Shown: in pieces, positions 471 through 14,209 of the stretch
Layout: each line of letters starts with the position of its first letter
Numbering within the stretch: position 1 is the stretch's first letter
From: a virus
DNA length: 20,731 bases
Strand: one strand, 5' to 3'
Virus record (IMG/VR): IMGVR_UViG_3300027784_000068
Span: 1-20,731 of that record
Program-made: the position numbers and the translations under genes
Notes under the pieces: model-generated
Databases searched by the model: none
The model's input: only the letters and a program-made list of their open reading frames with translations
Told to the model about the DNA's origin: nothing

Positions 471-893
471 TCAGTCCAATCCGGCTTCAATATTACCTTC
501 ATCTATAATTAATGAATTGCCTTCAGTTATACTTTCTGGACCATCATCAATTTCTAACCACCACCATATATTACCCTCACCAAAAGTTTCACTATCCATT
601 ATCGCTGCATATTGAACAGTAACATCAGGCATACCTTCAAGTTCTATTTCAGCTAAAGAATGGCAAAATGTAGGGTCAGTATCTTCACTTCTTGTTGGTT
701 CATCAAATTCCACTTCTACTCTTTCTGATTCATCATATTCATCAATTTCATGGGTCAAACTGCTAGTTTCCATGCTCGTTTCGCTTGCGTCGCTATCAAA
801 AATTGCTAAATAAAAATTTTCTGGAACAGATATATTTTCTCCACGAAGAATATGGTTTAATATTTCTTCTTCAGCATGATTAGATAAGTGCAT
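471..893 (-). CDS. Gp80-like phage tail fibre/structural protein
   Basis: This protein has 140 residues. The N-terminus (MHLSNHAEEEILNHILRG, then a YLAIFDSDAS segment) follows the pattern of small phage proteins annotated as Gp80-type tail fibre proteins, which begin with LSNHxExxxLNHxLR and a YLALF-like strand. The end also fits: an Ile-Thr-xx-Asn-Ser-Leu segment, then GNIEAGLD, resembling the family's closing GxLxxxLD. The centre is strongly acidic (residues about 40-75) and a WWWLEID patch precedes the end. The ribosome binding site AAGGAGG is ideally spaced and sits on the stop of the upstream gene. Family assignment is by recalled pattern and the exact virion role is not established. Confidence 0.68.
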   Translation of the reverse strand: MHLSNHAEEEILNHILRGENISVPENFYLAIFDSDASETSMETSSLTHEIDEYDESERVEVEFDEPTRSEDTDPTFCHSLAEIELEGMPDVTVQYAAIMDSETFGEGNIWWWLEIDDGPESITEGNSLIIDEGNIEAGLD

Positions 894-905
894 TAGATTT
901 CCTCC

Positions 906-1148
906 TTATCGTAAAGCTATAAACTCGCTTACTGTAGTATTATCTTCTAAAACTTCTACTGCTATAAGTGGGTGCACCATACCTGGTGATAAGTTTTCAA
1001 ATACTATAGATTCACCACTTTCCATACTTTTAAGCCTAAGCTCTAAATCTCCTTCATCACCCAAATATATACCAGCTGTTTGTCTAAACTCTTTATCGCC
1101 ATCAACAGTTATTTTTTCGCCTGATGTAGCTTTATTCCGATTTTGCAT
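906..1148 (-). CDS. Small phage structural-type protein
   Basis: This 80-residue protein has the pattern GDLELRLK, then SIVFENLSPGMVHPLIAVEVL, then TTVSEFIALR. The order (a Gly-Asp strand, a V-x-F-x-N-x-x-x-G turn, a P-x-x-V-x-x-V strand and a closing TT-x-x-x-x-x-AL) is common in small phage proteins encoded beside Gp80-like genes in head-tail clusters. The protein is probably all beta. The start has an AGGAGTG site 6 bases upstream. It sits between the Cys-motif protein and the Gp80-like protein, 13 bases from the latter. A decoration or tail accessory role is plausible but inferred. Confidence 0.65.
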   Translation of the reverse strand: MQNRNKATSGEKITVDGDKEFRQTAGIYLGDEGDLELRLKSMESGESIVFENLSPGMVHPLIAVEVLEDNTTVSEFIALR

Positions 1149-1158
1149 TATATCACTC

Positions 1159-1551
1159 CTACTGCACCTTATTAATAACTCTGCGAAGATTATTTATAGA
1201 ATTAATATGCTTTAAGAAAGCTAAAGCCTTATCATCATTAGAAGTTTGCCACATACCACCTTTAAATTTAGCTTCTTCTTTTTCTCCTTTATAAGGAAAA
1301 ACTACAGTATGTCGTGTTCTTCTACTAGAAAAAATATGCTTAGCCACATCAAAATTCACATCTTCTTTTATAGTTGAATCTTCATCTTTTTCGTTGTTTT
1401 CTTCTTCCTCAACGATACTTTCAGAGCCAAACATTTCTTGATGTTGTGGTAAATGGCAATACTTAGGGTCATCTTCGGGGAATACAGCTATATTTTGACA
1501 AGACTTGCCCGATTTTGTTTTAGCTTCACAAAGTTTTATATCTTCATTCAT
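1159..1551 (-). CDS. Small Cys-motif protein downstream of capsid gene
   Basis: The chosen ATG at 1549-1551 has GGAGG 8 bases upstream. An in-frame ATG five codons earlier overlaps that ribosome binding site and is unlikely to be used, which leaves 130 residues. The N-terminus has CEAKTKSGKSCQN then YCHLPQHQ, a C-x7-C...C-x-x-x-x-H pattern seen in small zinc-binding phage and bacterial domains. An acidic linker follows (about residues 45-70). The C-terminal part, with FKGGMWQTSNDDKALAFL, resembles short phage domains that end in a strand plus helix. It follows the capsid terminator directly, so its level may be lower than that of capsid. Function unknown. Confidence 0.72.
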   Translation of the reverse strand: MNEDIKLCEAKTKSGKSCQNIAVFPEDDPKYCHLPQHQEMFGSESIVEEEENNEKDEDSTIKEDVNFDVAKHIFSSRRTRHTVVFPYKGEKEEAKFKGGMWQTSNDDKALAFLKHINSINNLRRVINKVQ

Positions 1552-1567
1552 CAATATAACCTCCAAT

Positions 1568-1600
1568 TAAAATTTAAAGGAGAGGGAATTAACCCTCTCC
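1568..1600 (-). terminator. Intrinsic terminator after the capsid gene
   Basis: A perfect 8-bp stem (GGAGAGGG with CCCTCTCC) and a 6-base loop lie at 1579-1600, 15 bases past the capsid stop. Reading leftward, the stem is followed by TTTAAATTTT. It would end or reduce transcription between the capsid gene and the gene at 1551, a common way to keep capsid mRNA in excess. Confidence 0.68.
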
Positions 1601-1614
1601 CCTTAGTTTAACTA

Positions 1615-2898
1615 TTAATAGTGGGTAGAACCACCACCTAAGGCATTATGCAATACCCTATGAGTTTTTGGAAGTCTAACTTTCAAGGTCATTTGAGTTA
1701 GGTATTCATCTTTCCAACCTAACCTATCATTTTCCTGAATGTTAGTTCTTAAGGTAGTGTTATAGCCGGCAAAAGGCATTATGGATATATTCTCCATATC
1801 AAGCACGACTGCCATTTCTTCATAGTCATTTTCAAACATCTGAGTAGATACTAGATGTAAGCGACCATGAGTAGAAATATAGGTGCTGATAGTTAATCCA
1901 TAAGTTTCTTCTTGGCTTCTAGTTTGAATATTATCTCTAGCAAACTTATCAATTTCTTGCAATATAGATGGGGAAGCAATCATAAGTTTTTCGCTAGAAC
2001 CATACCAGAAAGCGTCTTTTAAGAAAGCGTTAAATTCTGTTTCATCAGAAGTAATATCTCGGCTTTCAAATTCATCTTCTAGGAATTGGAAAAGACCTCC
2101 CATCAAGCGTCTTTTTTCGGATACTATCTCTTTTCTTTCGCCGAATAATAAAGCTCTTTCAATGTCAAATCTGTGTTCAACAGCTTTACGCCTTCTTAAT
2201 CGCTGCCTTTCAGATTCATTAGTTCGTTTGCCTTCTTCTTCATTATCCCATGAGCCTGCAAAGGGAGTTCTAAATGTTTGTACAAAGTTAAACTCCTTTT
2301 TAGGCTGAGTAGCTCTAGGCTCTGGAGAAAGAGAGTTCTCCTCCATAGCGTTACCTAATCTCATAAGATAATCGTCATCTTGGATATATGGGTCGTCAGA
2401 ATCACCATCACGACCACCACCTGGTTCAGTACCATGCGATTCAGAGTTCCAGGTATCATAAGTGATACCTGCTTTAAGTTTAAGAGTATTATCAGAAGCT
2501 GTACCAGTTACTCTAAAAAGTTCACCAGTAGATGTATTTTTGACTATATCGTCTTTTCTGAACATTGAATAGTCATCAACATCAACTTCTATTTCATCAC
2601 CTTGGTCGTAATCGTAGTCGTCATCATCTTCAAAATCGCCATCAGCCTGCGTGTACCATTGGTCTAAATCATCATCATACCATACAACTTCAAGTGATTC
2701 AGCTGTTTCTTCACTTACCTGTCCACCAATTACTAAAAATGGTGTTTCGTCTGGCCTAAGTTCATAAATTTCCGGGGCAACACTAATATCCCTGCGTTCT
2801 CTATCAATGTTAAAAGTCATATTAGCATTATCGCCATGTTCCATTTCAGAGCCAGACCAAATATTCTGACCTGAACCGGGATATCTTTCTTCATCCAT
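1615..2898 (-). CDS. Major capsid protein, SU10-like
   Basis: This 427-residue protein fits the SU10-type (HK97-fold) major capsid family. The N-terminal part has IYELRPDETPFLVIGG, matching the family's L-x-P-x-x-TPF segment, followed by EVVWYDDDL. The middle (about residues 195-260) has QPKKEFNFVQTFRTPFAG, then an Arg-rich helix and DIERALLFGERKE, the most diagnostic stretch. The C-terminal half carries the expected STHGRLHLVSTQMF and later strands. An acidic insert at about residues 85-110 is unusually dense in Asp. It lies between scaffold and small head genes. The ribosome binding site AAAGGAGTG is partly enclosed in a hairpin (2905-2931). Confidence 0.9.
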   Translation of the reverse strand: MDEERYPGSGQNIWSGSEMEHGDNANMTFNIDRERRDISVAPEIYELRPDETPFLVIGGQVSEETAESLEVVWYDDDLDQWYTQADGDFEDDDDYDYDQGDEIEVDVDDYSMFRKDDIVKNTSTGELFRVTGTASDNTLKLKAGITYDTWNSESHGTEPGGGRDGDSDDPYIQDDDYLMRLGNAMEENSLSPEPRATQPKKEFNFVQTFRTPFAGSWDNEEEGKRTNESERQRLRRRKAVEHRFDIERALLFGERKEIVSEKRRLMGGLFQFLEDEFESRDITSDETEFNAFLKDAFWYGSSEKLMIASPSILQEIDKFARDNIQTRSQEETYGLTISTYISTHGRLHLVSTQMFENDYEEMAVVLDMENISIMPFAGYNTTLRTNIQENDRLGWKDEYLTQMTLKVRLPKTHRVLHNALGGGSTHY

Positions 2899-2904
2899 TA
2901 TTTT

Positions 2905-2931
2905 TCACTCCTTTTGTCAGCAAAGGAGTGA
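2905..2931 (-). promoter_or_regulatory. Hairpin enclosing the capsid ribosome binding site
   Basis: A perfect 10-bp inverted repeat, TCACTCCTTT and AAAGGAGTGA with a 7-base loop, lies 6 bases before the capsid ATG. In the leftward mRNA the AAAGGAGTG ribosome binding site is the 3' arm of the stem. It has no U-tract, so it does not look like a terminator. It may gate translation or protect the 5' end of a processed capsid mRNA. Confidence 0.7.
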
Positions 2932-2941
2932 ACCTATAATC

Positions 2942-4126
2942 CTAGCCTAAAAATCCTTTCTTTTTCTTTTGGAAAAGATTTTTCTTCAATTCCTGCTCAA
3001 ATATTTTTTCATTATTCTGGTTAGGAACATTTCTTCTCGTGTTAGAGAATATCTGAGCAGTTTCTTTTTGTGCCTGTATTTTATCCTGCTGGTTTCTACC
3101 CTGAACCCCAGGAGATTGTGGTGATTGTTGCTGTCGCCCTAAGTTTCTCCTGGCTATATTATAAGCTAACTTCAAGTTTTCGCCATTAGGATAAATATTG
3201 GCTATTTTTAGGTGAGGATTTGAGTTCATCACCTTTGCCATTTCTTGTTCAATTTGTTGGTCAACCTCGTTATTCTGCCTAAAATTTTGAATTTGTCTTG
3301 CCAACTGCTGTTTGCGCCTTTGGTGAAACTGTTGTTTGGATAAAGTATTGTCTTGTTGTCGCTGGCCTTGTTGCTGTTGTTCTGTATCAAAATCAGCTTG
3401 GCCTTGCTGCTGAGTTTCACCAGTATTCTCTTGGGCCTGTTGGTCCGGCTGATTCTGTTGAGCTTGTCCGGCATCACCCTTTTTATTCTTTTGATACTTT
3501 TCCTTTAGCTTTTCAAAGCGTGATTTCGGGGCTCTAGAATCTTGCCTTTCCTGCTGGGCAGGTTGTCCAGAGTTCTGGTTACTACTCTGTGCAGCAGGCT
3601 GTTGCTGATTTTGGGGTCGCTGTTGACCCTGATTTTGACTGGATTGCATTTGTTGTCGCCTACTTAACCTTGCCAGGTAACCTTTAATTTTACTGAGCTC
3701 ACTTTTAAGTTCCTGGTTTTCCTGTCGTACTTGGTCAACATCAGAAGTTTTGCCTAATTCTGTTTCTAGCTGCCTGTAATGGCTTTCCAATTCTTGATTA
3801 GACATATTTTTAATAGCGTCATGATTAAGTCTGCCTTTATTAAGTTTTAAACCTAGTTCGTTCATGCTTTTAACTAAATCTTCTCTAGACTTAAATTTAC
3901 CAGCTAACTTTCGGTCCTTTTGTTTTTGTTGAGTATTTTGAGTGTTTTCAGGTTCTCCAGTCTGATTTTGCTGGGCCTGTTGGTTTTGAAGGTTATCAAA
4001 AGTTTCCTTCTGGCCTTCTTGATTGTCTTGAGAAGGTTCTCCAGTATTCTGGGCCTTCCCTTCAGCTTCAGCAACCTTTTGGTCAAAACTTTTAGAATGG
4101 TTGCTGAGCTTAGATAATAAGTTCAT
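2942..4126 (-). CDS. Gln-rich capsid scaffold protein
   Basis: This 394-residue protein is dominated by Gln, Asn, Lys and Glu and is largely disordered and helical. Coiled-coil stretches lie at about residues 100-160 (LESHYRQLETELGK) and near the C-terminus, and the end is basic (NLFQKKKKGFLG), as in scaffolds that bind the inner capsid surface. It sits in the normal scaffold slot between portal and capsid. Its start overlaps the upstream stop as TAATG and has AGGAGG 8 bases before. No protease motif is visible. Scaffold identity rests on position, composition and the basic C-terminal helix rather than on a sequence match. Confidence 0.75.
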   Translation of the reverse strand: MNLLSKLSNHSKSFDQKVAEAEGKAQNTGEPSQDNQEGQKETFDNLQNQQAQQNQTGEPENTQNTQQKQKDRKLAGKFKSREDLVKSMNELGLKLNKGRLNHDAIKNMSNQELESHYRQLETELGKTSDVDQVRQENQELKSELSKIKGYLARLSRRQQMQSSQNQGQQRPQNQQQPAAQSSNQNSGQPAQQERQDSRAPKSRFEKLKEKYQKNKKGDAGQAQQNQPDQQAQENTGETQQQGQADFDTEQQQQGQRQQDNTLSKQQFHQRRKQQLARQIQNFRQNNEVDQQIEQEMAKVMNSNPHLKIANIYPNGENLKLAYNIARRNLGRQQQSPQSPGVQGRNQQDKIQAQKETAQIFSNTRRNVPNQNNEKIFEQELKKNLFQKKKKGFLG

Positions 4127-4437
4127 TAATTTACCTCCTTATTGTCCCTGTGGTATTCTTCTATTTTCCCTGTTATTTCTCTTAAAACTTTAAGTTTGCC
4201 TTTAATCCGGGCTATTTTGTGTGATTTTTCTGCCGGTGTACTTAGTATTTGATTAACATATTTTTTCTCTTTTTCCTCAATAAAATCTAAAAAGTGTGTA
4301 TAATAAGCGTGAGTGTACAAACTACCTAAAGCTCTATCTCTACTAATTTCTTCCCTGTGCCTGTCCCTGATTTGTGAATTGGGTATAGTTTGCACCTCCT
4401 CGCTGTCCCATAAACTGGGGTTGTGGAGTGCCATCAT
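4126..4437 (-). CDS. Small helical protein between portal and scaffold
   Basis: This 103-residue reading frame overlaps the 3' end of the portal gene by 95 bases. The first two codons are both ATG, and GGTGG lies about 9 bases upstream. No internal ATG exists, so an overlapping start is most likely, although a later alternative start cannot be excluded. The protein is helical, with THFLDFIEEKEKKYVNQIL and KIARIKGKLKVLREITGKI, resembling the small phage proteins that follow portal genes and end in an R-x-x-G-x-x-x-x-L-R-x-x helix. The role is unknown. Confidence 0.6.
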   Translation of the reverse strand: MMALHNPSLWDSEEVQTIPNSQIRDRHREEISRDRALGSLYTHAYYTHFLDFIEEKEKKYVNQILSTPAEKSHKIARIKGKLKVLREITGKIEEYHRDNKEVN

Positions 4438-6328
4438 TAGCTATTCCACCAGCGTGTCTATTAGGGCTTTCTAGCTTCTTACCTCCTAAATGGCCGGTAT
4501 TGGCTGTAGAACCTAAACTATTTTGCTGTTGGGTTACTCCTTCAAGTCCTGATAGCTGTGATAAATACCTTTCTCTTATCTCAGCCATTTCCTCATCAGT
4601 CAAGAAAAACTTCTCAGGATTCTTAAAGTCGAATGTTGATAGCCACTCCATGATAAACTTCCTGTAATTTATGAATGGAACATCAGCCTGGATTAAGAAA
4701 CCTAATGCTTCAGTAAGCTGCTCTCTCCTAAGCTGTTTGTTTGCTGCTTCATCTATAGTGGTCATGGCCGGAGAATAATCAAACTCACCTATTAAATCAC
4801 CAGGTTTAACTTCCTGCCATTTAGCTAAATCCTCTGGGTCGTATCTAACCACTCTAGGGTCAGTAATAAACTGCTGGTTGTTTAAATCCATCATTCTGGC
4901 TATTTCATTAACTATCTGCTCCTCAAGTATTCTGAGCTTAGCCTGATACCTGCCTAAAGCATTTTGCTGTAAATTTTGAGCTTCAGTAGCTGTTTGCCTT
5001 CCTGAAGATTCAACACCTCTTAAAATCGGTGGTGTAGGTAATGAAGATTCTATTTCGTTATGCAATAAATCCTCGTTAACATAGGCTGATTCAGGTATAT
5101 CTCCCATTTCTAACTTTTGGATTTCGTCCATTTCATCAACATCAATAACCTTGTTAGGTTCAGATACTAGCTGTGATTCGTCAATATCTGAATGTCTTTG
5201 CCTTAGCCACATATTGTTTAAAATCATAGTAGCATTATCTATGCGTTGATTGTGCATAGTATTGATTTCTTCCTGTATTTCATAAACTATCTCTATAGCT
5301 GACATACCATATAACTCGTTAGGCAGCTCCTCATAGCTCGCCATAGCAAAAGGTATGCTGCCATGTCGCCAGTAAGGATTAGGGCCATCATACATACACA
5401 TATCCCTGTTAACAATAATAGAGTGCCTGTCATCTTCCCAATAGTGCAATAACTCTATTTCGCTTTTACCTTTTAACCCTTTATCCTCAGATTTGTAGTA
5501 AGGGTCCCTGCCTTCAGGGGTTATCCCTACTTCTCTCATTCTAAGGTTTCTATCATCATCATGCTTTCTAGGGTTTCGCTGCTCTAGCCTATCAACATCA
5601 AGGTCGTATAATATACCTTCTTCCAGGTCTTTAAACCGGTTATACCTGTTAGCCAGCTCCTCCAGGGTTACATATTCCCTATGAAACACTCCTCTAGCGT
5701 CCTGTATCGACTTAGCTTCAGGGTCAGCCCAAAAGTCGAAGAAGTCTATATTTACTACCTCGTTATCGTCATAGACCACTTCTGGAGCTTCTATAATGTC
5801 CCATACCCTGTTGCCGGTATATAAGCCATCAATAACCTCTGGCACCTGAGCTTTACGCCTTACCATCTGCTGCTCAAACCTCCAGCCTACACCCAATATA
5901 CCGGCTGGAAAGATAAGATAAGAAGTGATAAACTCGTAAAATTCCTTGTTGATAGTGCATTTTTCTAGCTGTTCATCAACAATAGCAGCAGCTATTTCGG
6001 CTTTATCCTCGGAAACAACATAACTCCTTAAAGAGCCTGTTTCTGGCATAGGGATAAACTCAATATATGGTCTTTGCCCAAAAAAGCTAGTTACCAGCTG
6101 GCTTCTTATAGTATCAATAGCTTGATAGACTTTAGGTATATTCAGGTTAGACAGGTTACTATCACCATCTTTTCTGTCCTCCATATATCCCCTATAAGTC
6201 TTATAGTGGTCTAAGGCTTTTTCTTCATATTGCTGCCTAAAAGACTTATAATACTGGAATATACCTAATAGCTCTTGCGTTATATCATCTTGTTCGTATG
6301 AACGCCTTGCTAGGTGTCGTTTTGCCAT
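4343..6328 (-). CDS. Portal protein
   Basis: This 661-residue protein forms the dodecameric ring through which DNA is packaged. Portal traits are visible: an N-terminal helical part (residues 10-50), the SQLVTSFFGQRPYIEFIP segment near residue 80, a central EIQEEINTMHNQRIDNATMI stem-type helix, and GVESSGRQTATEAQ at about 435-450, a crown-side motif frequent in large phage portals. The C-terminal 60 residues are low in complexity and rich in Gly, Gln and Asn. The start has AGGAGG. It follows large terminase and precedes scaffold and capsid, the standard order. At 661 residues it is longer than many siphophage portals and closer to podophage-type connectors. Confidence 0.9.
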   Translation of the reverse strand: MAKRHLARRSYEQDDITQELLGIFQYYKSFRQQYEEKALDHYKTYRGYMEDRKDGDSNLSNLNIPKVYQAIDTIRSQLVTSFFGQRPYIEFIPMPETGSLRSYVVSEDKAEIAAAIVDEQLEKCTINKEFYEFITSYLIFPAGILGVGWRFEQQMVRRKAQVPEVIDGLYTGNRVWDIIEAPEVVYDDNEVVNIDFFDFWADPEAKSIQDARGVFHREYVTLEELANRYNRFKDLEEGILYDLDVDRLEQRNPRKHDDDRNLRMREVGITPEGRDPYYKSEDKGLKGKSEIELLHYWEDDRHSIIVNRDMCMYDGPNPYWRHGSIPFAMASYEELPNELYGMSAIEIVYEIQEEINTMHNQRIDNATMILNNMWLRQRHSDIDESQLVSEPNKVIDVDEMDEIQKLEMGDIPESAYVNEDLLHNEIESSLPTPPILRGVESSGRQTATEAQNLQQNALGRYQAKLRILEEQIVNEIARMMDLNNQQFITDPRVVRYDPEDLAKWQEVKPGDLIGEFDYSPAMTTIDEAANKQLRREQLTEALGFLIQADVPFINYRKFIMEWLSTFDFKNPEKFFLTDEEMAEIRERYLSQLSGLEGVTQQQNSLGSTANTGHLGGKKLESPNRHAGGIANDGTPQPQFMGQRGGANYTQFTNQGQAQGRN

Positions 6329-6345
6329 GAAACTTACCTCCTAAC

Positions 6346-6573
6346 TTACATAGGTGGGGTGCCTCCACCACCTGGTGCACCACCAGCTTGAGCTTGCTGG
6401 GCACCTTGAGCCTGCTGTATCATTTCGGTTGCTAGCTGTATAGCCAACTGTTCAAGTTCTTCCCTGGGCATAGCCTGTATTTCCTGGGCAATTTGCATTT
6501 GTGGGTCCTGTCCTTGTGCTTGAGCACCTTCTTGAGCACCTTGTGGCTGTTGTGGTTGTGGCTGCATAGCCAT
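6346..6573 (-). CDS. Small Gln/Ala/Gly-rich protein between terminase and portal
   Basis: The ATG at 6571-6573 has GGGAGTG about 6 bases upstream. A GTG three codons earlier sits inside that site and is rejected. The 75-residue product has a PQPQQPQ start, one helix with MPREELEQLAIQLATEMI, and a tail of Gly, Ala and Pro. The helix resembles short phage proteins encoded just before portal genes. The Gln-rich ends match the composition of the scaffold protein and the portal C-terminus. Function unknown. Confidence 0.68.
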   Translation of the reverse strand: MAMQPQPQQPQGAQEGAQAQGQDPQMQIAQEIQAMPREELEQLAIQLATEMIQQAQGAQQAQAGGAPGGGGTPPM

Positions 6574-6590
6574 TAATAACACTCCCTTAG

Positions 6591-8189
6591 TTAATAATTA
6601 GTTACTTTTGACCTTGGTTTTAACCTGTTTTGTCTAAATTGCTCTCTGTAAAAACTTTCGTCTTTCGGACTACTTCTCTCCATTGGCCTTGACATACAGA
6701 AATATCTTAATGAATCAGCCCCATGCGTTATGTCATGGGGCTGTGTGGCTACATCATTGGGGTCATCATCATCTTGCTGTAGTTTAGGTAAATTGTTTAT
6801 CAAATCATCAACCCTGTTGTTGATAAACATAAGCCTGGCTACCTTCTTAGCGTCCTCATCATCAACATCATCAGTTTCTAGAGGGTCAGGTATCGGTCTA
6901 AGCATTTCTTTGACCACCCTCCAGCCTTCTACACGCCTGGTATCGGCCATTTTAAACCTGATACCTTTAAGTCCATTCTCTCTCAGTATAACTTTGCCTG
7001 ATTTACCGGTATCTCGTTCTCTGCGATTAAATAAATCCGGTGGACCGACAATATAAACTAAAGAATCTTTCTCAATCGGGTTCATGTAATCTAAAATCTT
7101 CTTAGCTAGTGATGAAAGTATTAAATCGGGCACTTCAAAGCCTTTATAGCAGTAATAAATACCAAAAGTATCGACTGCATACCAATAGACTGCTGAACAG
7201 TCCAATCCATAGTCGATACTGATAAATCTTTTCCAATTATCGTTAATATCTATATCTTCAGGCTCTAAAACATGAATATCACGCCTAAATTCGCTGAAAA
7301 ACTGGCCTTCGTGTATGTCCCAGCTACCTTCTAGCAATCTTTCCTTGTCTTTTTCAGATTGACCCTCCAATTTTTTACGATAACGGGGGTCCCTTTTCTC
7401 AAGTATGTAATTATCGGCTAGTTTGGCCGGTATGAACATATGTTTCCTGTAAACACCGGGTCTAATTTCGACATCATTGGCTTTTTCGGGCTTGCCAGGT
7501 GAAATAAAGTCCCTTTTAGCCCAGTTATGGCCTATATTGCCGGGGTTAGACGCCAAAAGCATAACAGGAATAACGCCATTGACTGACGACCTGTTCCTGG
7601 AAGTCATGTATGTGTACATTCTCTCGGTAAACTGGGTAGCTTCATCAAAAGCCATGAAGCCAAACTGCTGTGATTGGTAGTCGTACAGGTTTTCCTCGTG
7701 TTTTATGTGGTTAAAGTCGATAATTGAGTTGTTTTGTTCGGTAAAAGTCCATCTGTGGTCCTTCTTGTTGTACTGGGCACCGGGAAAATCGCTGAAAAGC
7801 TCTCTCGAACGCATTATCGGGCCTTTTGCACCTTCTAGCTGGGTGAATTTACGCCTGAAATACCCACAAGAACAGCCTGGAAACGATAAAGCAGCGATAA
7901 ATAAGGCCATAAGTAAAGCGTCTGACTTGCCACCACCGGCTGCACCACCATACAAAATAATATCAGCCTTAGGTTCGGTCGGCCCAGAGGGTATTTCTTC
8001 CCTTCTCACCTTCGTTATCGTGCCATCTTCATCTTCGATAACATAATACCGGAAAGGATAGTCTAATCCAATAGATTTGAGAAAGGTCAATTGCCTTTTC
8101 TGGGGCAACCAGGGTATGTTGAAGTCGATATTGTTCTTGATATTCTCTTTTTTCTGCTCTAACCTTCGCTTCAACCCTACAGCTGGCAT
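6591..8189 (-). CDS. terL: Terminase large subunit
   Basis: This is the ATPase-nuclease that cuts concatemeric DNA and drives it through the portal. Numbering from the ATG at 8187-8189, Walker A is GGAAGGGKS (about 81-89), Walker B is FMAFDEA (about 178-184), a coupling motif ASNPG lies near 213-217, and the nuclease domain begins with FISIDYG, whose Asp is near 326. The ATG has GGAGG and GGAG upstream at good spacing; a GTG three codons earlier is too close to them. The length of 532 residues is normal. It overlaps nothing, and starts 2 bases past the small terminase stop. Confidence 0.95.
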   Translation of the reverse strand: MPAVGLKRRLEQKKENIKNNIDFNIPWLPQKRQLTFLKSIGLDYPFRYYVIEDEDGTITKVRREEIPSGPTEPKADIILYGGAAGGGKSDALLMALFIAALSFPGCSCGYFRRKFTQLEGAKGPIMRSRELFSDFPGAQYNKKDHRWTFTEQNNSIIDFNHIKHEENLYDYQSQQFGFMAFDEATQFTERMYTYMTSRNRSSVNGVIPVMLLASNPGNIGHNWAKRDFISPGKPEKANDVEIRPGVYRKHMFIPAKLADNYILEKRDPRYRKKLEGQSEKDKERLLEGSWDIHEGQFFSEFRRDIHVLEPEDIDINDNWKRFISIDYGLDCSAVYWYAVDTFGIYYCYKGFEVPDLILSSLAKKILDYMNPIEKDSLVYIVGPPDLFNRRERDTGKSGKVILRENGLKGIRFKMADTRRVEGWRVVKEMLRPIPDPLETDDVDDEDAKKVARLMFINNRVDDLINNLPKLQQDDDDPNDVATQPHDITHGADSLRYFCMSRPMERSSPKDESFYREQFRQNRLKPRSKVTNY

Positions 8190-8191
8190 AT

Positions 8192-8827
8192 CTAGCACTC
8201 CTCCGGGGTAACATCAATAGCTTTCTCGTCAACCTCCCTTATCTCACCATCAACTTCAGGCATTTGGAAGTTAACATTTACACTACCTTCATCACCAGCG
8301 TTGATATTGACATTGGTGGAGTTATCCTTGTACTGGGGTAGTCTAGCCTTAATAGCAAACATAAGCAAATTATCACTGTACTCTCTTTCCTCGCCGACCT
8401 TCTCGCCTTGATACCATACACCTTTCTTCGTGCCCTGGGCTCCTCGCCTTATCGCTTCTGCTACCAGTAAATCGTCATGTAAAGCGTCCATCTGCTCCTC
8501 TAACTCGTTAAATAAATTGCAGTCAACAGGTGGTTTATCCACATCACCACGCCACAATCTGATACCTTCACTCGTTACATCAGCCATCTTGGCAGCTAAA
8601 CCAACTCTGCCGGTAGCTGCTAAACCTGCAAGATATATAGCCTTCCTCGTATTCGTCAACCTACCCTTGTAATCGTTCATTATCTGCTTGAATGTCCGAA
8701 GAAAGATAGCTTTCATGTTAAACGCACTTTCCTCGTTATCGGCTTTACTAAAATCAGGCAAAAAATTGTCGCTTATCTCTATAGCCTTATCAAAATCTAC
8801 CTCAGCCGGCATACTAGATTCTGACAT
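8192..8827 (-). CDS. terS: Terminase small subunit candidate
   Basis: The 211-residue product has a helix-turn-helix at about residues 66-95 (AATGRVGLAAKMADVTSEGI then LWRGD), the typical small terminase DNA-recognition pattern. An acidic middle and a C-terminal region that would be used for oligomerisation or large-terminase contact follow. The frame is open 30 codons further upstream, but AGGTGGGG precedes the ATG at 8827 and the upstream frame overlaps another gene, so 8827 is chosen. It immediately precedes the large subunit, whose ribosome binding site lies in its last codons. No direct family match was possible, so the call rests on HTH, size and position. Confidence 0.8.
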   Translation of the reverse strand: MSESSMPAEVDFDKAIEISDNFLPDFSKADNEESAFNMKAIFLRTFKQIMNDYKGRLTNTRKAIYLAGLAATGRVGLAAKMADVTSEGIRLWRGDVDKPPVDCNLFNELEEQMDALHDDLLVAEAIRRGAQGTKKGVWYQGEKVGEEREYSDNLLMFAIKARLPQYKDNSTNVNINAGDEGSVNVNFQMPEVDGEIREVDEKAIDVTPEEC

Positions 8828-8984
8828 TCGTTTCACCCCACCTGGAATCAGGACCGTACTCCTCCCAGTATCTCTCGCAAATTGTCCTCCTGTGCTCCCC
8901 CTGAGGAAACTCCTCACTCATCTCAGTATCAGTCATGCACCTTCCCACAAAATCTTCTCTGCTCTCTGTCTTTTTCGGTCGCAT
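8814..8984 (-). CDS. Small RCM...IC motif phage protein
   Basis: The 56-residue frame begins MRPKKTESREDFVGRCMTDT and continues EEFPQGEHRRTICERYWEEY. The pattern E-x-x-x-x-F-x-x-RCM-x-D, then E-(F/Y)-P-x-x-x-x-R-x-x-IC-x-x-x-W is common in phage proteins and domains near head genes. An AGGTG ribosome binding site is 8 bases upstream of the ATG, and the frame overlaps the start of the small terminase by 14 bases. It is the first gene of the leftward operon, about 175 bases from the leftward promoter. Function unknown; the two conserved Cys could bind metal. Confidence 0.75.
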   Translation of the reverse strand: MRPKKTESREDFVGRCMTDTEMSEEFPQGEHRRTICERYWEEYGPDSRWGETNVRI

Positions 8985-9057
8985 TAACTAACACCTGCCC
9001 TTTCTACCAGTAAAACATCAGGAGCCGGAGCTACCGACCCCCTAATGCTTTACCAAT

Positions 9058-9102
9058 CTGCTAAATACAAGCTAACTGCTATAAACCCAGCTCCCTGCTA
9101 AA
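9058..9102. repeat. Three CTGCTAWA-type direct repeats in the leftward leader
   Basis: CTGCTAAA at 9058, CTGCTATA at 9076 and CTGCTAAA at 9095 are spaced 18 and 19 bases apart. They sit in the leader of the small terminase operon, about 75 bases upstream of the first gene. Small terminase or a regulator could bind them, but this is inference. Confidence 0.5.
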
Positions 9103-9165
9103 AGCTGGCCTTGAAGGAGGAAACTAAATCTATAAAAAAATATTTCTAGGAGGGTGGTTCACTAT

Positions 9166-9186
9166 CAGTATATATCACATATACTG
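9166..9186. promoter_or_regulatory. Palindromic operator candidate
   Basis: CAGTATAT and ATATACTG form a perfect 8-bp inverted repeat around ATCAC. It covers the -10 box and part of the spacer of the leftward promoter and lies 25 bases upstream of the rightward -35 box. A repressor here would block leftward transcription and could also affect the rightward promoter. Confidence 0.6.
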
Positions 9187-9196
9187 CATAAGTCAA
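9167..9196 (-). promoter_or_regulatory. Leftward sigma-A-like promoter for the packaging/head operon
   Basis: Read leftward, TTGACT (9191-9196) is followed by 18 bases and TATACT (9167-9172). An alternative TATATA at 16-base spacing overlaps it. The start point would be near 9160, giving a leader of about 175 bases before the gene at 8984. Confidence 0.58.
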
Positions 9197-9211
9197 ATTA
9201 TATTTAGAAAA

Positions 9212-9241
9212 TTGACACTCCAAACCCCATTATGCTATACT
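9212..9241 (+). promoter_or_regulatory. Rightward sigma-A-like promoter for the short RNA
   Basis: TTGACA (9212-9217), an 18-base spacer and TATACT (9236-9241) form a near-consensus promoter. Its architecture matches the leftward promoter exactly. Transcription would start near 9248 and meet an intrinsic terminator after about 115 bases. Confidence 0.65.
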
Positions 9242-9247
9242 CTACTC

Positions 9248-9369
9248 GTACCACTCCTTTTTCCCATACCACTCTCCTTTCCATAATATAGCCAGGTTTA
9301 TCGGGTATTTAATCTAACCTCCAATGTCAACACCAATCCCCGGTAAGTCTGGCTCTTTTTTTGTTTTTT
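9248..9369 (+). ncRNA. Predicted short RNA with anti-Shine-Dalgarno stretches
   Basis: A promoter just upstream and a strong terminator at the end bound a transcript of roughly 115-120 bases with no frame of note. Its 5' part is pyrimidine-rich and has two 18-base-spaced copies of TACCACTC followed by CTTT or CCTTT. These are complementary for 10-11 contiguous bases to ribosome binding sites of several phage genes. The 33-base terminator loop contains TAACCTCC, another anti-Shine-Dalgarno stretch. Existence as an RNA is inferred from signals only. It could also be an attenuated leader of the rightward genes. Confidence 0.5.
9291..9369 (+). terminator. Intrinsic terminator with 15-bp stem and long loop
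   Basis: GCCAGGTTTATCGGG (9291-9305) pairs along its whole length with CCCGGTAAGTCTGGC (9339-9353), using three G-U pairs. The loop is 33 bases. A T-rich tract, TCTTTTTTTGTTTTTT, follows directly. The G-U pairs weaken the reverse-strand version of the stem and so point to a function in rightward RNA. Confidence 0.75.
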
Positions 9370-9407
9370 AAAATAATTTTTAGGGCTTTTATGTTTGCTA
9401 ATGTGAT

Positions 9408-9454
9408 GGGGGGATATATATATTATGGTGGCGGTCAAAGGTCGCCTGCCCCCC
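9408..9454. repeat. G6/C6 nested inverted repeat
   Basis: GGGGGG (9408-9413) can pair with CCCCCC (9449-9454), enclosing a smaller GGCG/CGCC stem (9430-9433 with 9443-9446). G-runs of this length stand out in this AT-rich region. No good T-tract follows on either strand, so a terminator is doubtful. Confidence 0.4.
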
Positions 9455-9724
9455 TGGGTTTTCTTGCCTTCTAAATGGCTTTTAAAACCCTAGCTCCAGC
9501 TAACTACAGACTATTGCAAATTTATTAGTCTACCTTCCTCTGTTTTTGCTCCTTCTGGTTAACTTCCTTCCTTCCTTCTAACTTCTCCTTTGATTGATGA
9601 ATAAATCCAGCAAGCAAATATTTTTTTCTTATTGATCAGCGTTTTGGAATTTCCTTAGCCTATTTTTGGCCAGCTGGATTGAATTAATTCGTTGGGGGGG
9701 GATTCGCTTTAACACCAGAGAAAA

Positions 9725-9788
9725 AGCTATCAGCTCCAATTATAAAGCTATTAAGTTATATAAGAGCTATAAAAACTTATAGAGCTAT
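9725..9788. repeat. AGCTAT iterated repeats
   Basis: AGCTAT occurs at 9725, 9746, 9765 and 9783, at spacings of 21, 19 and 18 bases. The last three copies lie in longer near-repeats that also share an A/G-rich step and TTAT. Another copy is at 9906. Spacing near two helical turns suggests protein binding sites, either operator or replication iterons. Confidence 0.5.
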
Positions 9789-9911
9789 ATTTTAGGTTAT
9801 GGAGGTGTGTGCTATCAACCAGATTATTACATCAAACAATCAATACAAGGCCAGATAGATATAAGAGAAAACTACATAGAGGTAAAAGCAATTAAGCAGT
9901 TATATAGCTAT

Positions 9912-10002
9912 AAGTAATTAAGTAATTAAGTAATTAGTTATTAAGTAATTAATAAGTACTTAAGTACTTAAGTAATATAATAAGTACTAAGTAATATAAT
10001 AC
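9912..10002. repeat. AT-rich AAGTAATT/AAGTACTT repeat array
   Basis: AAGTAATT repeats in an 8-base period at 9912, 9920 and 9928, and again at 9943. AAGTACTT follows at 9954 and 9962, then AAGTAATATAAT and related units to about 10002. The tract is almost pure A+T and would melt easily. It may be a DNA-unwinding element or a regulatory array; no gene crosses it. Confidence 0.65.
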
Positions 10003-10171
10003 ATAGATTAAAGCATTAAAGATAATATAAAGTTATAAGATAGAGTTATAAACTGCCAAGATGTATGATATTACAGCAATGACGGGAGTAATCAAGTTAA
10101 TTAAAGGTAAACCTATATATAACAGATGGAAAAAGAATAAAAAAGAATAAAAAAAATCGGGGAAAAAAGAA

Positions 10172-10209
10172 GGAGAATCAAGAGGTATCTATAAGTATAT
10201 AGTAGGACA
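10172..10209 (+). repeat. 38-bp upstream element, copy A
   Basis: This 38-bp stretch is 33/38 identical to 11958-11995. It ends 21 bases before the GTG of the first rightward gene and includes AAGAGGTATCTA shared by both copies. No classical -35/-10 pair is clear in either copy. It may be a phage-specific promoter or a regulator site. Confidence 0.6.
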
Positions 10210-10230
10210 CAAAAAAAGGAGGTGGTTGGA

Positions 10231-10419
10231 GTGAAGAAAATATCTATTATCTGCAAGAGCTGTAATTACCTTTTCGAGACGATGGCAGAAATTAGCGAGG
10301 AAATTGAAGAATTGACCTGCAGTCAATGTGGCAGGACAAACAGATACCTGCCGCACAAAATTAAGGCAGGCAGGGAATATTATCAAGAAATATGGTCAGC
10401 AAAAACCAAAAAGGAGTGA
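10231..10419 (+). CDS. Small zinc-ribbon protein
   Basis: AGGAGG lies 8 bases before the GTG at 10231; a GTG at 10222 overlaps that site and is rejected. The 62-residue product has CKSCNYLF and, about 25 residues later, CSQCGRTNRY, a two-knuckle zinc ribbon. The order CxxC near the N-terminus and CxxCxxxN later is faintly like the Com translational regulator of Mu-like phages, but that is a resemblance only. It is the first gene of the rightward block and directly follows repeated element A, so it is probably expressed early. Function unknown. Confidence 0.78.
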   Translation: MKKISIICKSCNYLFETMAEISEEIEELTCSQCGRTNRYLPHKIKAGREYYQEIWSAKTKKE

Positions 10420-10425: not shown

Positions 10426-10854
10426 ATGGCAAAAGCAAAAACTGATAAGAAGGCAACAACTAGAAAGCTTGCAGAGTATATCAGAGCCAAAGGCAGAGCT
10501 ACAGCTATGGATGGTCTTGAGGAGTATGTAATGACTTTTGAATTGAACCGGTCATTGAGCCTTAATGACCTTACTGACCTCCTAAATAATAATAAAAGGA
10601 TGAAGGGTAGGATTAAGCTACAGGATGGTATGGGTCACGTCATAGTCAACTCAAAGATTGCTAATGAGATTTTTGTTTCGCATGATATGGATAGAACCTT
10701 GTATTTGTCCGATGGTCAGGAAATAAGGATGGGCTATAATCAGCCCATCAATATCCATGTGAATAAACATGGTGCAATGGACATTATACTTCATATTGAT
10801 GTGCCTGACAACTATGACTTATTGGTTCACTTCTATCTCAATACAGAGCTTTAA
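10426..10854 (+). CDS. Hypothetical early protein
   Basis: This 142-residue protein begins with a basic stretch (MAKAKTDKKATTRKL) and continues with a mixed alpha/beta sequence that includes FELNRSLSLNDLTDLL, VSHDMDRTLYLSDG and IILHIDVPDNYDLLVHFYL. There are no Cys, no membrane segment and no recognised motif. The AAAAAGGAGTG ribosome binding site is the longest perfect match (11 bases) to the predicted short RNA at 9248. It follows the zinc-ribbon gene by 6 bases, so the two are probably cotranscribed. The basic N-terminus might bind nucleic acid, but I recognise no family. Confidence 0.78.
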   Translation: MAKAKTDKKATTRKLAEYIRAKGRATAMDGLEEYVMTFELNRSLSLNDLTDLLNNNKRMKGRIKLQDGMGHVIVNSKIANEIFVSHDMDRTLYLSDGQEIRMGYNQPINIHVNKHGAMDIILHIDVPDNYDLLVHFYLNTEL

Positions 10855-10908
10855 AGCACTTGCATAGGGCAGGAACTAAAAAGCCTGCCCCTTGCTGGTA
10901 CTTTAAGC
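10848..10908 (+). promoter_or_regulatory. Long imperfect stem-loop after the gene at 10426
   Basis: A core stem, GGGCAGG with CCTGCCC (10867-10873 and 10884-10890), has a 10-base loop. It is extended by a partly paired stretch and by an outer GCTTTAAAG/CTTTAAGC stem that includes the stop codon of the upstream gene. No T-tract follows, so it may stabilise or process mRNA instead of ending it. Confidence 0.5.
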
Positions 10909-10938
10909 AACACAATAATATTAAGGAGAGTGGAAAAA

Positions 10939-11472
10939 ATGACTAAAAAAGAGACAACTAGCCTAAGGATTTGTGTCGAAGAATTTACCACAAGGAGCTG
11001 GATTTGGATAAGTCTGCCTGAGGATAACAAAGACCTTTGGGATATCATTAATGACTTCCTTGACCAAAATAACGCTGAAGAGTGGGCAATCGCTGATATT
11101 GAGGGCTTTGGAGACTATGGAGTCGACTTTGATGACATCCAGACAATAGACCAAGCAAATGAACTGGCTGAGATACTTGAAGACCAAGAAGACCCTGAAG
11201 TGACATACCTGTTAAATGGAACCTTTGACCTTGAGGAGACTCTGGAAATACTTGAGACTGAAAACTATAGAATTGTCGAAGCTCCAACTGACTTAGGCTT
11301 TGCTGATGGCGACCTTGCACATCAACTTTGGAATAAATTTGACTACTGGATGGAGATACCTGAAGAACTTGAGAACTATATTAACTGGGAAGACTTAGAA
11401 CGTGACTTGCTCCTAGATGATTCTGCAACATATATCATAGGGGAGAAGATGGCAGTCATAGTATATGCTTAG
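10939..11472 (+). CDS. ardA: ArdA-like antirestriction protein
   Basis: ArdA proteins mimic DNA and inhibit type I restriction enzymes. This 177-residue protein is very acidic and fits the ArdA outline: an N-terminal strand with WIWISLPED, then EEWAIADIEGF near 47-57, QTIDQANELAEIL near 68-80, and the C-terminal YINWEDLERDLLLDD near 147-161, which parallels the family's Y-x-D-x-E-x-x-x-RDL segment. Length matches the family. The ATG is chosen over a GTG three codons upstream because AAGGAGAG precedes it at ideal spacing. It would act early, protecting incoming DNA. Confidence is fair, because the match was recalled and not searched. Confidence 0.75.
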   Translation: MTKKETTSLRICVEEFTTRSWIWISLPEDNKDLWDIINDFLDQNNAEEWAIADIEGFGDYGVDFDDIQTIDQANELAEILEDQEDPEVTYLLNGTFDLEETLEILETENYRIVEAPTDLGFADGDLAHQLWNKFDYWMEIPEELENYINWEDLERDLLLDDSATYIIGEKMAVIVYA

Positions 11473-11481
11473 TATATGCTT

Positions 11482-11510
11482 AAGGCTGGAGTCAATAAGG
11501 CTCCAGCCTT
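11482..11510 (+). promoter_or_regulatory. Stem-loop after the ArdA-like gene
   Basis: AAGGCTGGAG (11482-11491) and CTCCAGCCTT (11501-11510) make a perfect 10-bp stem with a 9-base loop, 9 bases past the stop. No T-tract follows on either strand, so it is more likely an mRNA end-stabilising or processing hairpin than an intrinsic terminator. Confidence 0.55.
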
Positions 11511-11530
11511 CTAGAAGAAAACCTAAAAAA

Positions 11531-11626
11531 ATGGGTCACCTGTATCTTAAGTTTGAGGAGTTGAATGAAGATGACTTGACAGTTAATGATTATCTACAAG
11601 GCCATTACAACTCAGAGGAGTGGTAA
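11531..11626 (+). CDS. Possible 31-residue microprotein
   Basis: The frame reads MGHLYLKFEELNEDDLTVND and ends SEEW, with the acidic bias of neighbouring proteins. Its stop lies just before the next gene, whose ribosome binding site falls within its last codons, as in coupled genes. The only upstream purine stretch is AGAAGAAAA, a weak site. It could be real and coupled, or a chance frame. Confidence 0.4.
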   Translation: MGHLYLKFEELNEDDLTVNDYLQGHYNSEEW

Positions 11627-11629
11627 AAA

Positions 11630-11851
11630 ATGTTAACAGGTAAAAAAATGATTAAACAAGCTAAATTGAAAGAAGAATTGAGAAAAACATTAGAAGGCAA
11701 AACGAATTCTGAAAAGGTCAAGTATCTGAACAATAATTTGATTGCAAAAGAGAATAGTAACGGGAAGAGATTCTGGTATCACTCAAATTTTGATGGTGAT
11801 TATATTGCTTGGCAGAACAATGTATTTCAAGGAAGTGAAATAATAATTTAA
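11630..11851 (+). CDS. Hypothetical small protein
   Basis: This 73-residue protein has a basic helical N-terminal half (MIKQAKLKEELRKTLEGKT) and a C-terminal half with KRFWYHSNFDGDYIAWQNNVF, rich in aromatic residues. No known motif is visible. The ribosome binding site AGGAGTGG is well placed. An intrinsic terminator follows 45 bases after the stop, so it closes the first rightward transcription unit. Confidence 0.65.
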   Translation: MLTGKKMIKQAKLKEELRKTLEGKTNSEKVKYLNNNLIAKENSNGKRFWYHSNFDGDYIAWQNNVFQGSEIII

Positions 11852-11895
11852 GGGGTGAAAAAAGATAGCAATTAATGCAAGATGTTCCTGGAGAT

Positions 11896-11934
11896 TTAGG
11901 GCAGGTTAACTGCCTGCCCTAATTAATTTTTTTT
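11896..11934 (+). terminator. Intrinsic terminator of the first rightward unit
   Basis: TTAGGGCAGG (11896-11905) and CCTGCCCTAA (11913-11922) form a perfect 10-bp stem with a 7-base loop, followed by TTAATTTTTTTT. The stem core AGGGCAGG is the same as in the stem-loop at 10866. The next gene has its own copy of the 38-bp element. Confidence 0.88.
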
Positions 11935-11957
11935 GAGATTTTTTAAAAATTGATGCA

Positions 11958-11995
11958 GGAGAATTAAGAGGTATCTAGAAGTATGTATTAGAACA
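11958..11995 (+). repeat. 38-bp upstream element, copy B
   Basis: This copy is 33/38 identical to 10172-10209 and lies right after the terminator and 31 bases before the ATG at 12027. A position after a terminator and before a new unit is what one expects of a promoter. TTGATG stands upstream of TATCTA at 16 bases, a poor sigma-A fit. Confidence 0.6.
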
Positions 11996-12026
11996 GGAAA
12001 ATACTAATGATAAGGAGCGGTTATTA

Positions 12027-12191
12027 ATGGATAAGGAGTTATCCAGAGCTAAGGAGAATCAAGGGAATGGAATGGAAGGCATAAGGAAGGCAGAACAGAT
12101 AAGAAATTGCTTTTTCTGTGGAGAGAAGGTCAAGGGAGAAGGGAATGTTTGCGACAATCAAGTTTGTCAAGCGACTGCCAAAAATTTATAA
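12027..12191 (+). CDS. Small zinc-finger protein
   Basis: The 54-residue product has a charged N-terminal helix and a Cys cluster, CFFCGEKVKGEGNVCDNQVC, which can bind one zinc with C-x2-C and C-x4-C pairs. AAGGAG is well spaced before the ATG. It starts the second rightward unit, just after element B. This mirrors copy A, which also precedes a small zinc-ribbon gene. I do not recognise the family; a nucleic-acid or protein contact role is inferred from the motif. Confidence 0.72.
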   Translation: MDKELSRAKENQGNGMEGIRKAEQIRNCFFCGEKVKGEGNVCDNQVCQATAKNL

Positions 12192-12211
12192 GGATATAAG
12201 GAGTGGTTAAA

Positions 12212-12586
12212 ATGAAATATAGAGAAGTTAAAGAGGTTATAACGATACTGGAAGACATTAAATGCTCATTAATCAATCTAGAAAGCATTATGGAGGATAG
12301 CTCTGAAGATATGAACAAGAGTTTTTGCAAGGCATGGGTATGGCCGGTTGATATATCAGCAATGGCTATTGATTTCAAGAATATGATTAAGGAATTAAGG
12401 GAAGAACAGAAAAGACAAGAAGTAAAATTAGACTTGAAGGAGTTAAGGGAAATAATCGCAAAGATTCAGCAAAAAAATGATTTTGAAGATTATGGAGATA
12501 TATTTAAAGAATTATATCAAGGCAATACAAGAGAAATAAAAGAGGTCAGCTATAGCCTTAATGAATCTCTGGAGAATTTAGATTAA
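12212..12586 (+). CDS. Hypothetical coiled-coil protein
   Basis: The ATG at 12212 has AAGGAG 8 bases upstream, better than a GTG three codons earlier. The 124-residue product is mostly helical and charged, with likely coiled coils at about residues 60-90 (MIKELREEQKRQEVKLDLKE) and at the end. A WVWPVDIS turn breaks the helices near residue 42. There are two Cys but no motif. Unknown function; it is part of the small-gene early cluster. Confidence 0.65.
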   Translation: MKYREVKEVITILEDIKCSLINLESIMEDSSEDMNKSFCKAWVWPVDISAMAIDFKNMIKELREEQKRQEVKLDLKELREIIAKIQQKNDFEDYGDIFKELYQGNTREIKEVSYSLNESLENLD

Positions 12587-12630
12587 TGAGTGGTATCAAT
12601 GATTGAAAAGGGAAAAGGAGGACGAATAAA

Positions 12631-12798
12631 ATGGATAAAGAGATAAGATATAACCAGACTAGGAACGCAATTTTGGCAGCCAAAAAAGCATTAGAAAACA
12701 AAGACCACACAGGATTCAGGAGAAAGCAGTTAATTAATAATTTAGAGGACGCAATGGTATATCTAAAAGACTTAAAACCTGCTAAGGAGAGTGAATAA
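12631..12798 (+). CDS. Hypothetical 55-residue protein
   Basis: The protein begins MDKEIRYNQTRNAILAAKKA and consists of two helices with a basic FRRKQLINNLEDAMVYL stretch. AAAGGAGG is about 8 bases before the ATG. Its end overlaps the ribosome binding site of the next gene, so the two are probably coupled. The helical hairpin form is common among small phage proteins; no function can be assigned. Confidence 0.68.
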   Translation: MDKEIRYNQTRNAILAAKKALENKDHTGFRRKQLINNLEDAMVYLKDLKPAKESE

Positions 12799-12799
12799 G

Positions 12800-13114
12800 A
12801 TGGAAGAATATAAGCAAAGATTACAGGAAGCAGCAGAGAAAAATAATGTTCCTAATAGCATTGCACAAGCTTTTATCGACCATGCTTTATATGGTCGAGG
12901 ACTTGCTCATGGTGGATTTGTTAAAGCATTGATGGATAACGATTTTGTCAACGCAGTTTGCAGAGCTGATAGCGAAAATGGAGAGAATCTAAGGGGAATA
13001 GCCTTATTCATGTATAACTATCTTCCAGAAGGCAGCTGGGGGAGCATGGAAAAGGCTAAGGAATGGGAAGGCTTAGCAAGAAATCAAAAGGAGGGTAAAA
13101 AAGAGAATATTTAA
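12800..13114 (+). CDS. Conserved-type phage hypothetical protein
   Basis: The ATG at 12800 follows AGGAGAG at 8 bases; a GTG three codons earlier overlaps the previous gene. The 104-residue product has IDHALYGRGLAHGGFVKALM, DNDFVNAVCRAD and YLPEGSWGSMEKAKEWEG. The order (IDH-x-x-Y-x-x-G, GGF, L-x-ND, AD-x-EN, W-G-S) is a pattern I recall from a widespread family of phage hypotheticals encoded among early genes. No catalytic motif is evident. Role unknown. Confidence 0.74.
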   Translation: MEEYKQRLQEAAEKNNVPNSIAQAFIDHALYGRGLAHGGFVKALMDNDFVNAVCRADSENGENLRGIALFMYNYLPEGSWGSMEKAKEWEGLARNQKEGKKENI

Positions 13115-13370: not shown

Positions 13371-13521
13371 ATGGAGCTTTTTCTGCCCTAAGTGCTGGAA
13401 ATCAGTAGAGATTGCTGGGAATTATATCTGCTATATGGATAGGCAAAAAGGTTGTCCTGCTAATGAAATACTGCGACTTAGAGCTAAGGAGAGGAGGGAG
13501 GAGGCTAAAAATGAAACTTGA
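13360..13521 (+). CDS. Small zinc-ribbon protein
   Basis: The 53-residue protein begins MRAEWSFFCPKCWKSVEIAG and has further Cys at NYIC and KGCP, giving C-x2-C and C-x8-C pairs. A basic helix ends it (LRLRAKERREEAK). GGAGGG is upstream of the ATG. The gene overlaps both neighbours by about 11 bases, so it is translated as part of a chain. The motif would bind a zinc ion; targets are unknown. Confidence 0.7.
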   Translation: MRAEWSFFCPKCWKSVEIAGNYICYMDRQKGCPANEILRLRAKERREEAKNET

Positions 13522-14209
13522 CAAAATATTAAATGACCATGAAAAATGGCTCAATAATTGTGGTGGGGATAAGGCTGATTTGAGTTATACTGATTTAAGC
13601 AGTGCTGGTTTGAACCATGCTAATTTAAGAGATGCTAATTTAAGAGGTGCTGATTTAAGTAATGCTGATTTAAGAGATATTGATTTGAGCTATGCTGATT
13701 TAATCAATGCTGATTTGAACCATGCTAATTTAAGAGATGCTAATTTAATCAATGCTGATTTGAGAAGTGTTGATTTAAGAGATGCTGATTTAAGAGGTGC
13801 TAATTTAAGTAATGCTGATTTAATCAATGCTGATTTGAGAGGTGTTGATTTAAGCAACATAAAAACAAATGAACACACATTAGGAGTATCTAATCTATGT
13901 CCCGAGGAGGGGAGTTTTATAGGGTATAAAAAAGCTAGAAATTGTTTAATTAAATTAAAAATTACAGAAGATGCTAAAAGAAGTAATGCAACAACAAAAA
14001 AATGCAGGTGTAGTAAGGCAAAAGTTTTAAAAATAACTGATTTAGATACAGGTAAAGAAAAAGAAAAAGTTGCAAGTAATTGGGATGGAAATTTTATCTA
14101 TAAAAAAGGGAAAATAGTGGAAGTTTCTGATTTTGATGAAGATAGGTGGAATGAATGTAGTACAGGAATACATTTTTTTATAGATAAAAGATTAGCCATA
14201 AATTATTAA
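13511..14209 (+). CDS. Pentapeptide-repeat protein with DUF5758-like C-terminus
   Basis: The ATG at 13511 follows GGAGG and gives 232 residues. Residues about 18-112 contain 19 A(D/N)LXX pentapeptide repeats, which fold as a right-handed quadrilateral beta helix. The C-terminal part has CPEEGSFIGYKKA, then ATTKKCRCSKAKVL, DFDEDRWNECSTGIHFFI and a closing AINY, a module I recall as DUF5758, found after pentapeptide repeats in phages. The repeats are built from near-identical 15-base DNA units, a sign of recent expansion. DNA mimicry as in Qnr proteins is possible but unproven. Confidence 0.85.
   Translation: MKLDKILNDHEKWLNNCGGDKADLSYTDLSSAGLNHANLRDANLRGADLSNADLRDIDLSYADLINADLNHANLRDANLINADLRSVDLRDADLRGANLSNADLINADLRGVDLSNIKTNEHTLGVSNLCPEEGSFIGYKKARNCLIKLKITEDAKRSNATTKKCRCSKAKVLKITDLDTGKEKEKVASNWDGNFIYKKGKIVEVSDFDEDRWNECSTGIHFFIDKRLAINY

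Follow-up and report, generated by a model that had tools for sequence, protein, structure and literature searches.

The window analysed here, a 20.7-kb virus fragment, contains two divergent gene blocks separated by an intergenic region at positions 8985-10221. The minus-strand genes at 1-8984 are structural and include those for the major head protein, an SU10-type portal and the large and small terminase subunits, while the plus-strand genes from 10222 onward look early and code for a zinc ribbon, ORFans and ArdA (gene 10939, ArdA-like, Pfam PF07275), with an SbcC-like ATPase, RecT and a methyltransferase recognised farther right by tblastn or by eye. The early region also harbours a pentapeptide-repeat protein (ADLxNADL..., 13412-14209) that may act as a DNA mimic alongside the ArdA-like gene. 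Ahead of the early genes, at 9880-10000, lie A+T-rich direct repeats (AAGTAATT, AAGTACTT) that represent a possible replication origin; a similar A+T-rich stretch also precedes the early genes of the relative L007. A search of the window for tRNA and tmRNA genes found none. The best genome matches of RecT are an archaeal-binned contig and a Halanaerobiaceae MAG from one sediment series, with other Firmicutes next, and our guess is that the host is a halophilic Firmicute.

On the plus strand of the intergenic region we predict a near-consensus extended -10 promoter of the sigma-70 type at 9212-9241 (TTGACA, 18 nt, TATACT, with TG ahead of the -10; 11/12). Sites scoring 11/12 occur twice in the window, the extended -10 at this one only, and the number expected on the plus strand of the intergenic region is 0.04. 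Transcription is predicted to start at about G9248 and to yield a non-coding RNA of about 115 nt (9248-9362), as judged from promoter, fold and U-run. From about G9248 the RNA comprises the unpaired GUACCACUCCUUUUUCCCAUACCACUCUCCUUUCC followed by a hairpin of 16 bp and a U-run ending at 9362, the last two forming an intrinsic terminator at 9290-9362 (stem 9290-9305/9339-9354, long loop, U-run 9356-9362). A reading made from the sequence alone (the sequence-only reading) had proposed that a promoter and a terminator bound a short transcript here, which is borne out, with a stem of 16 bp. The plus-strand fold has a z-score of -3.4 and beats 200/200 shuffles; the fold of the minus strand here is within the range of chance (z -1.4). 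A divergent minus-strand promoter that faces the terminase and structural genes (9167-9196, TTGACT-18-TATACT) overlaps a palindrome (AGTATATatcacATATACT, 9167-9185) that covers its -10 element and is likely an operator, fit for a repressor.

The predicted RNA contains no ORF with a Shine-Dalgarno (SD) sequence. A plus-strand peptide starting at ATG 9323 was considered and rejected, this codon sitting in the terminator loop without an SD sequence. Rfam 15 covariance models (LhrC, RsaE, C4 and others) gave no match at the gathering threshold, and the sole result of a lax Rfam search of 8900-10300 was a chance eukaryotic miRNA (E 0.63).

Complementarity of the tail to phage ribosome-binding sites

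The unpaired pyrimidine tail at 9249-9280 holds two TACCACTC units. Seed 1 (UACCACUCCUUUUU, 9249-9262, plus strand) is complementary to the ribosome-binding sites (RBSs) of genes 10426, 11630 and 12212 and of the capsid gene 2898, and seed 2 (UACCACUCUCCUUU, 9267-9280, plus strand) to those of genes 10939 (ArdA) and 12800; in the predicted fold both are unpaired with a probability of at least 0.96. The promoter, the unpaired seeds and the terminator all share the same orientation. On the plus strand, the matches comprise 11 nt at 10408-10418 (gene 10426, seed 1) and at 10923-10933 (gene 10939, seed 2), and 10 nt at 11616-11625 (gene 11630, seed 1), 12198-12207 (gene 12212, seed 1) and 12784-12793 (gene 12800, seed 2). 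This confirms the complementarity of two pyrimidine units to phage RBSs noticed in the sequence-only reading, with 11 nt at two sites and 10 nt at the three it had listed; the site of gene 12800 was absent from its list. Five of the six matched sites are RBSs of neighbouring early genes (10426-12800), 1.2-3.5 kb from the RNA. Their sequences are GGAGTGGT, GGAGTGAA and GGAGAGTGG/GGAGAGTGA, whereas GGAGGT or GGAGGGT is found in the late genes and at the sites further right.

The sixth site, at the RBS of the major capsid gene (2906-2915, minus strand), is a doubtful target. Its 10-nt match is present, but the site is predicted to be buried in mRNA structure with an opening cost of 10.5 kcal/mol, and the capsid gene is therefore not supported as the target it had been taken for. 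The terminator loop had likewise been assigned to the site of the gene at 1551. The match stands at 14 of 15 bases, 11 of them contiguous, but a target role is unsupported: one site only is concerned, and a single 11-nt match with a GGAGG core is likely fortuitous. Elsewhere in the RNA, positions 9283-9296 (ATAATATAGCCAGG) match window 3149-3162, in the sense orientation of the gene at 2942-4126, exactly over 14 nt, which is probably coincidental.

Because all sites share an SD core, as had been cautioned from the outset, our controls were centred on this core. Long matches were defined as at least 10 contiguous bases, and the window has 26 SD sites. When both CTCCTTT cores were kept fixed and the rest of the tail was shuffled, 1.26 ± 1.21 sites were matched compared to six for the actual tail (1/1000). 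When every 40-nt segment of either strand was scanned blindly, the antisense strands of real RBSs included (self excluded), the tail matched 6/26 SD sites and the runner-up two. That it outscores even these antisense strands marks the tail as a hub of complementarity rather than the copy of a single RBS. No second-order Markov shuffle of the window in which the sites stayed fixed reached six at any position (0/300; best five, once). This is further supported by 134 control loci of phage and prophage type (2.0 Mb), in which we scored the best segment not opposite an RBS: none exceeds five, the sole locus scoring five does so with a plain canonical anti-SD stretch, and the others reach at most three. 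The tail itself matches 48 of 2075 SD sites in the controls (2.3%) versus 6/26 (23%) here (Fisher p = 3e-5). Taken together, the shuffles and control loci indicate that the excess of complementarity is specific to this phage rather than a property of SD sequences.

The early preference of the tail is seen in predicted binding energies that include the opening energies of target and RNA. These average -13.75 kcal/mol over the first eight early sites and -6.1 kcal/mol over eight late sites, a difference equalled by 1/400 core-kept shuffles. The early set was chosen on the same sequence as the finding, and the blind scan corrects for place though not for each statistic that could have been chosen. 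The 16S anti-SD, taken over all early and all late sites, yields a much smaller difference (early -9.4, late -6.9 kcal/mol). The mean duplex energy over all sites, however, is not beyond core-kept shuffles, and judged on mean duplex energy only the tail does no more than tie with the antisense strands of real early RBSs. The shuffle comparison suggested earlier thus favours the tail in long-match count and early-late contrast but not in all-site mean energy.

As read from the letters, the 16S end (GAUCACCUCCUUU) pairs with the full length of GGAGTGGT or GGAGAGTGG only via a bulge, whereas the seeds complement both of these types of early-module site without one. The 16S end binds better than the tail at sites 893, 1551, 6328 and 16226; a mimic of the anti-SD would bind canonical GGAGGT at least as well as 16S does, and the tail does not. 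The view of the RNA as a general mimic of the 16S end is not supported, since the seeds fit early-module RBSs and several GGAGGT late sites prefer 16S. With an all-site mean energy that is not significant and antisense strands of early RBSs that bind equally well, the RNA behaves like a consensus sequence antisense to the early RBSs.

Relatives and alternative explanations

The closest relative, L006 (TerL 76%, portal 83% identical), is the only close one covering the place. It aligns with window 9354-9426, from the U-run to the GGGGG.TATATATATTAT element (score 46, against 27 for the best of 100 shuffles). While this flank is kept, nothing in L006 corresponds to the RNA body, and the RNA thus has no comparative support. 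In L007 and L086 (TerL 54-57%), which like L006 came from alignment scans, the region is entirely different. These comparisons indicate that the RNA is of recent origin or changes rapidly, a common trait of phage regulatory RNAs. No DNA-level homologues were found in phages; single-protein scans of viral contigs with TerS, the 10426 protein and TerL likewise yielded none, and a RecT search of viral contigs for the early side of relatives gave at best 24-28% identity. A scan of viral contigs for ACCACTCCTTTN{2,16}ACCACTC returned 14 matches, nearly all overlapping ORFs, and on inspection none has a similar promoter-tail-terminator layout. No further genome of the lineage with both the intergenic region and the early operon was found.

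The conserved element just 3' of the RNA (TTTG(C/A)TAAT.TG.TGGGGG(.)TATATATATTAT; window 9354-9426, L006 264-191) is a candidate early promoter or origin element. It contains a promoter candidate at 9395-9424 (TTGCTA-18-TATATT, 9/12), and L007 has a similar GGGGGGGGTGTATATACTAATA near 1590-1560. Other features of the relatives were noted in passing. On the minus strand of L007, an extended -10 promoter (TTGACA-17-TACAAT) precedes a strongly structured RNA of about 420 nt (930-1352, z -4.5) with a weak full-length match to Rfam HOLDH (16 bits, E 0.28). An intergenic element of about 90 nt is near-identical in L007 (about 1920-1825) and L086 (about 130-30), minus strand, its hairpin being kept by a two-sided change (ATCAAA-GGAGAG-TTTGAT versus ATCACA-GGAGAG-TGTGAT). 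L006 carries at 680-1060 two tandem copies of a small ORF whose counterpart in the window (8814-8984) precedes the small terminase.

Two alternatives stand out as the main ones. In the first, the transcript is a short terminated RNA, of the OOP kind or made as a by-product of regulated promoter activity, with an accidental anti-SD resemblance and no pairing function. This would fit the SD core common to all sites, the lack of the RNA in L006 and the all-site mean energy, but it is at odds with the early-late contrast and with the surplus of long matches seen in the blind scan and against controls and shuffles, and we consider it unlikely. In the second, the RNA is an attenuated leader at the 5' end of the rightward early operon: the promoter at 9212 would also drive 10222 onward upon read-through of the terminator, with the tail acting in cis on its own mRNA or termination alone being important. 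It has the orientation of the early genes, the next of which lies 860 b downstream with no other plus-strand promoter of at least 10/12 in between. A leader is nevertheless distinctly improbable: the conserved TTGCTA-18-TATATT element 3' of the terminator provides a candidate promoter or control element, the terminator is strong, no antiterminator helix was noticed, and the complementarity of the tail to RBSs would be left unexplained.

Alternatively, the minus strand may be the functional one, AAAGGAGAGTGGTATG serving as RBS of a leader peptide (MGKRSGTSRV) in leftward transcription and the plus-strand similarity being its shadow. GGAG is indeed placed at spacing 6 ahead of an ATG, but the ORF has 10 codons only, no start codon is suitably spaced from the second unit, and the nearest minus-strand promoter (9196-9167) lies downstream of the ORF and hence does not transcribe it. 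The minus strand of the DNA for the RNA shows no plausible RBS-gene pair, and this explanation is very unlikely. Hardly any weight can be given to a general anti-SD mimic covering host mRNA SD sequences and shutting off host translation. While the CU-rich tail pairs with many SD cores and about 2% of SD sites elsewhere (phages, Firmicutes loci) have 10-nt matches, this rate is tenfold below that of this phage, and canonical GGAGGT sites, including those of late phage genes, are bound worse than by 16S.

A predicted antisense RNA among known regulators

We favour, with moderate confidence, a trans-acting antisense sRNA of about 115 nt that blocks translation of several early genes of the phage itself. 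The strong sigma-70-type promoter would start the RNA at about G9248, and its own terminator would end it. The single-stranded 5' tail would present tandem seeds, one for GGAGTGGT-type and one for GGAGAGTGG-type RBSs, which could pair with the SD regions of several genes in the proximal portion of the rightward early operon (10426, ArdA 10939, 11630, 12212, 12800) and probably with those of 12631 and 13511. Pairing would keep 30S subunits off and thereby lower translation of the early genes together, probably once late transcription from the divergent promoter takes over, a timing that we infer solely from the divergent layout of the RNA and the leftward promoter at 9196-9167. The earlier suggestion that one RNA silences several phage genes is in line with the complementarity and the predicted early preference, but not with respect to the capsid and 1551 targets.

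More speculatively, the RNA and an early operon with matching non-canonical RBSs (GGAGTGGT, GGAGAGTGG) might constitute a dedicated address system that GGAGGT late genes escape, a possibility we view with some doubt. Here 16S would translate the early genes via bulged pairing and the RNA would switch them off together. The antisense RNAs known from phages have in most cases a single mRNA as target, and the early-to-late shut-off is commonly explained by transcription factors, nucleases or proteins. If true, one RNA would coordinate an early-gene set at translation via a shared operon-specific RBS form, and any phage could be searched for non-coding segments that form a complementarity hub to its own SD sites.

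The phage-encoded RNAs C4 (P1/P7), sar (P22) and OOP (lambda) are short and block translation or stability of phage mRNAs, C4 acting around the ribosome-binding site (PMC12197685). Like these, the predicted RNA is phage-encoded and complementary to RBSs of its own phage. They are described as controlling one mRNA each (ant, ant and cII), whereas here a consensus anti-RBS would address several unlinked RBSs of one operon, and in place of a single main target opposite or adjoining we find five early sites 1.2-3.5 kb off. VpdS (VP882) and PreS (lambda) are also trans-acting phage sRNAs but are Hfq-dependent, VpdS targeting phage and host RNAs and PreS host dnaN, with no description of binding to an array of phage SD sites (PMC12197685).

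By analogy, the best supported assignment is a mechanism akin to that of the CU-rich SD-blocking sRNAs of Firmicutes, LhrC and RsaE (PMC4132741, PMC9217828). RNAs of this type have at least two single-stranded C-rich seed motifs, here 9249-9262 and 9267-9280, and pair with several SD regions beyond the SD core, as computed for the tail; an own promoter and intrinsic terminator without an ORF are likewise predicted here. RsaE/RoxS and RNAIII of Staphylococcus and Bacillus use a duplicated C-rich seed pairing with the SD sequences of many mRNAs, but have host metabolic or virulence targets and other sequence and structure (PMC9217828). LhrC of Listeria is similar in being a short terminator-ended RNA with several redundant CU-rich motifs, each of which can block translation by pairing with an SD region (PMC4132741). 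While LhrC is chromosomal and multicopy, targets host adhesin mRNAs and has its UCCC motif partly in loops, the predicted RNA is phage-encoded, carries ACCACU(CU)CCUUU at its extreme 5' end and would target the phage's own early genes.
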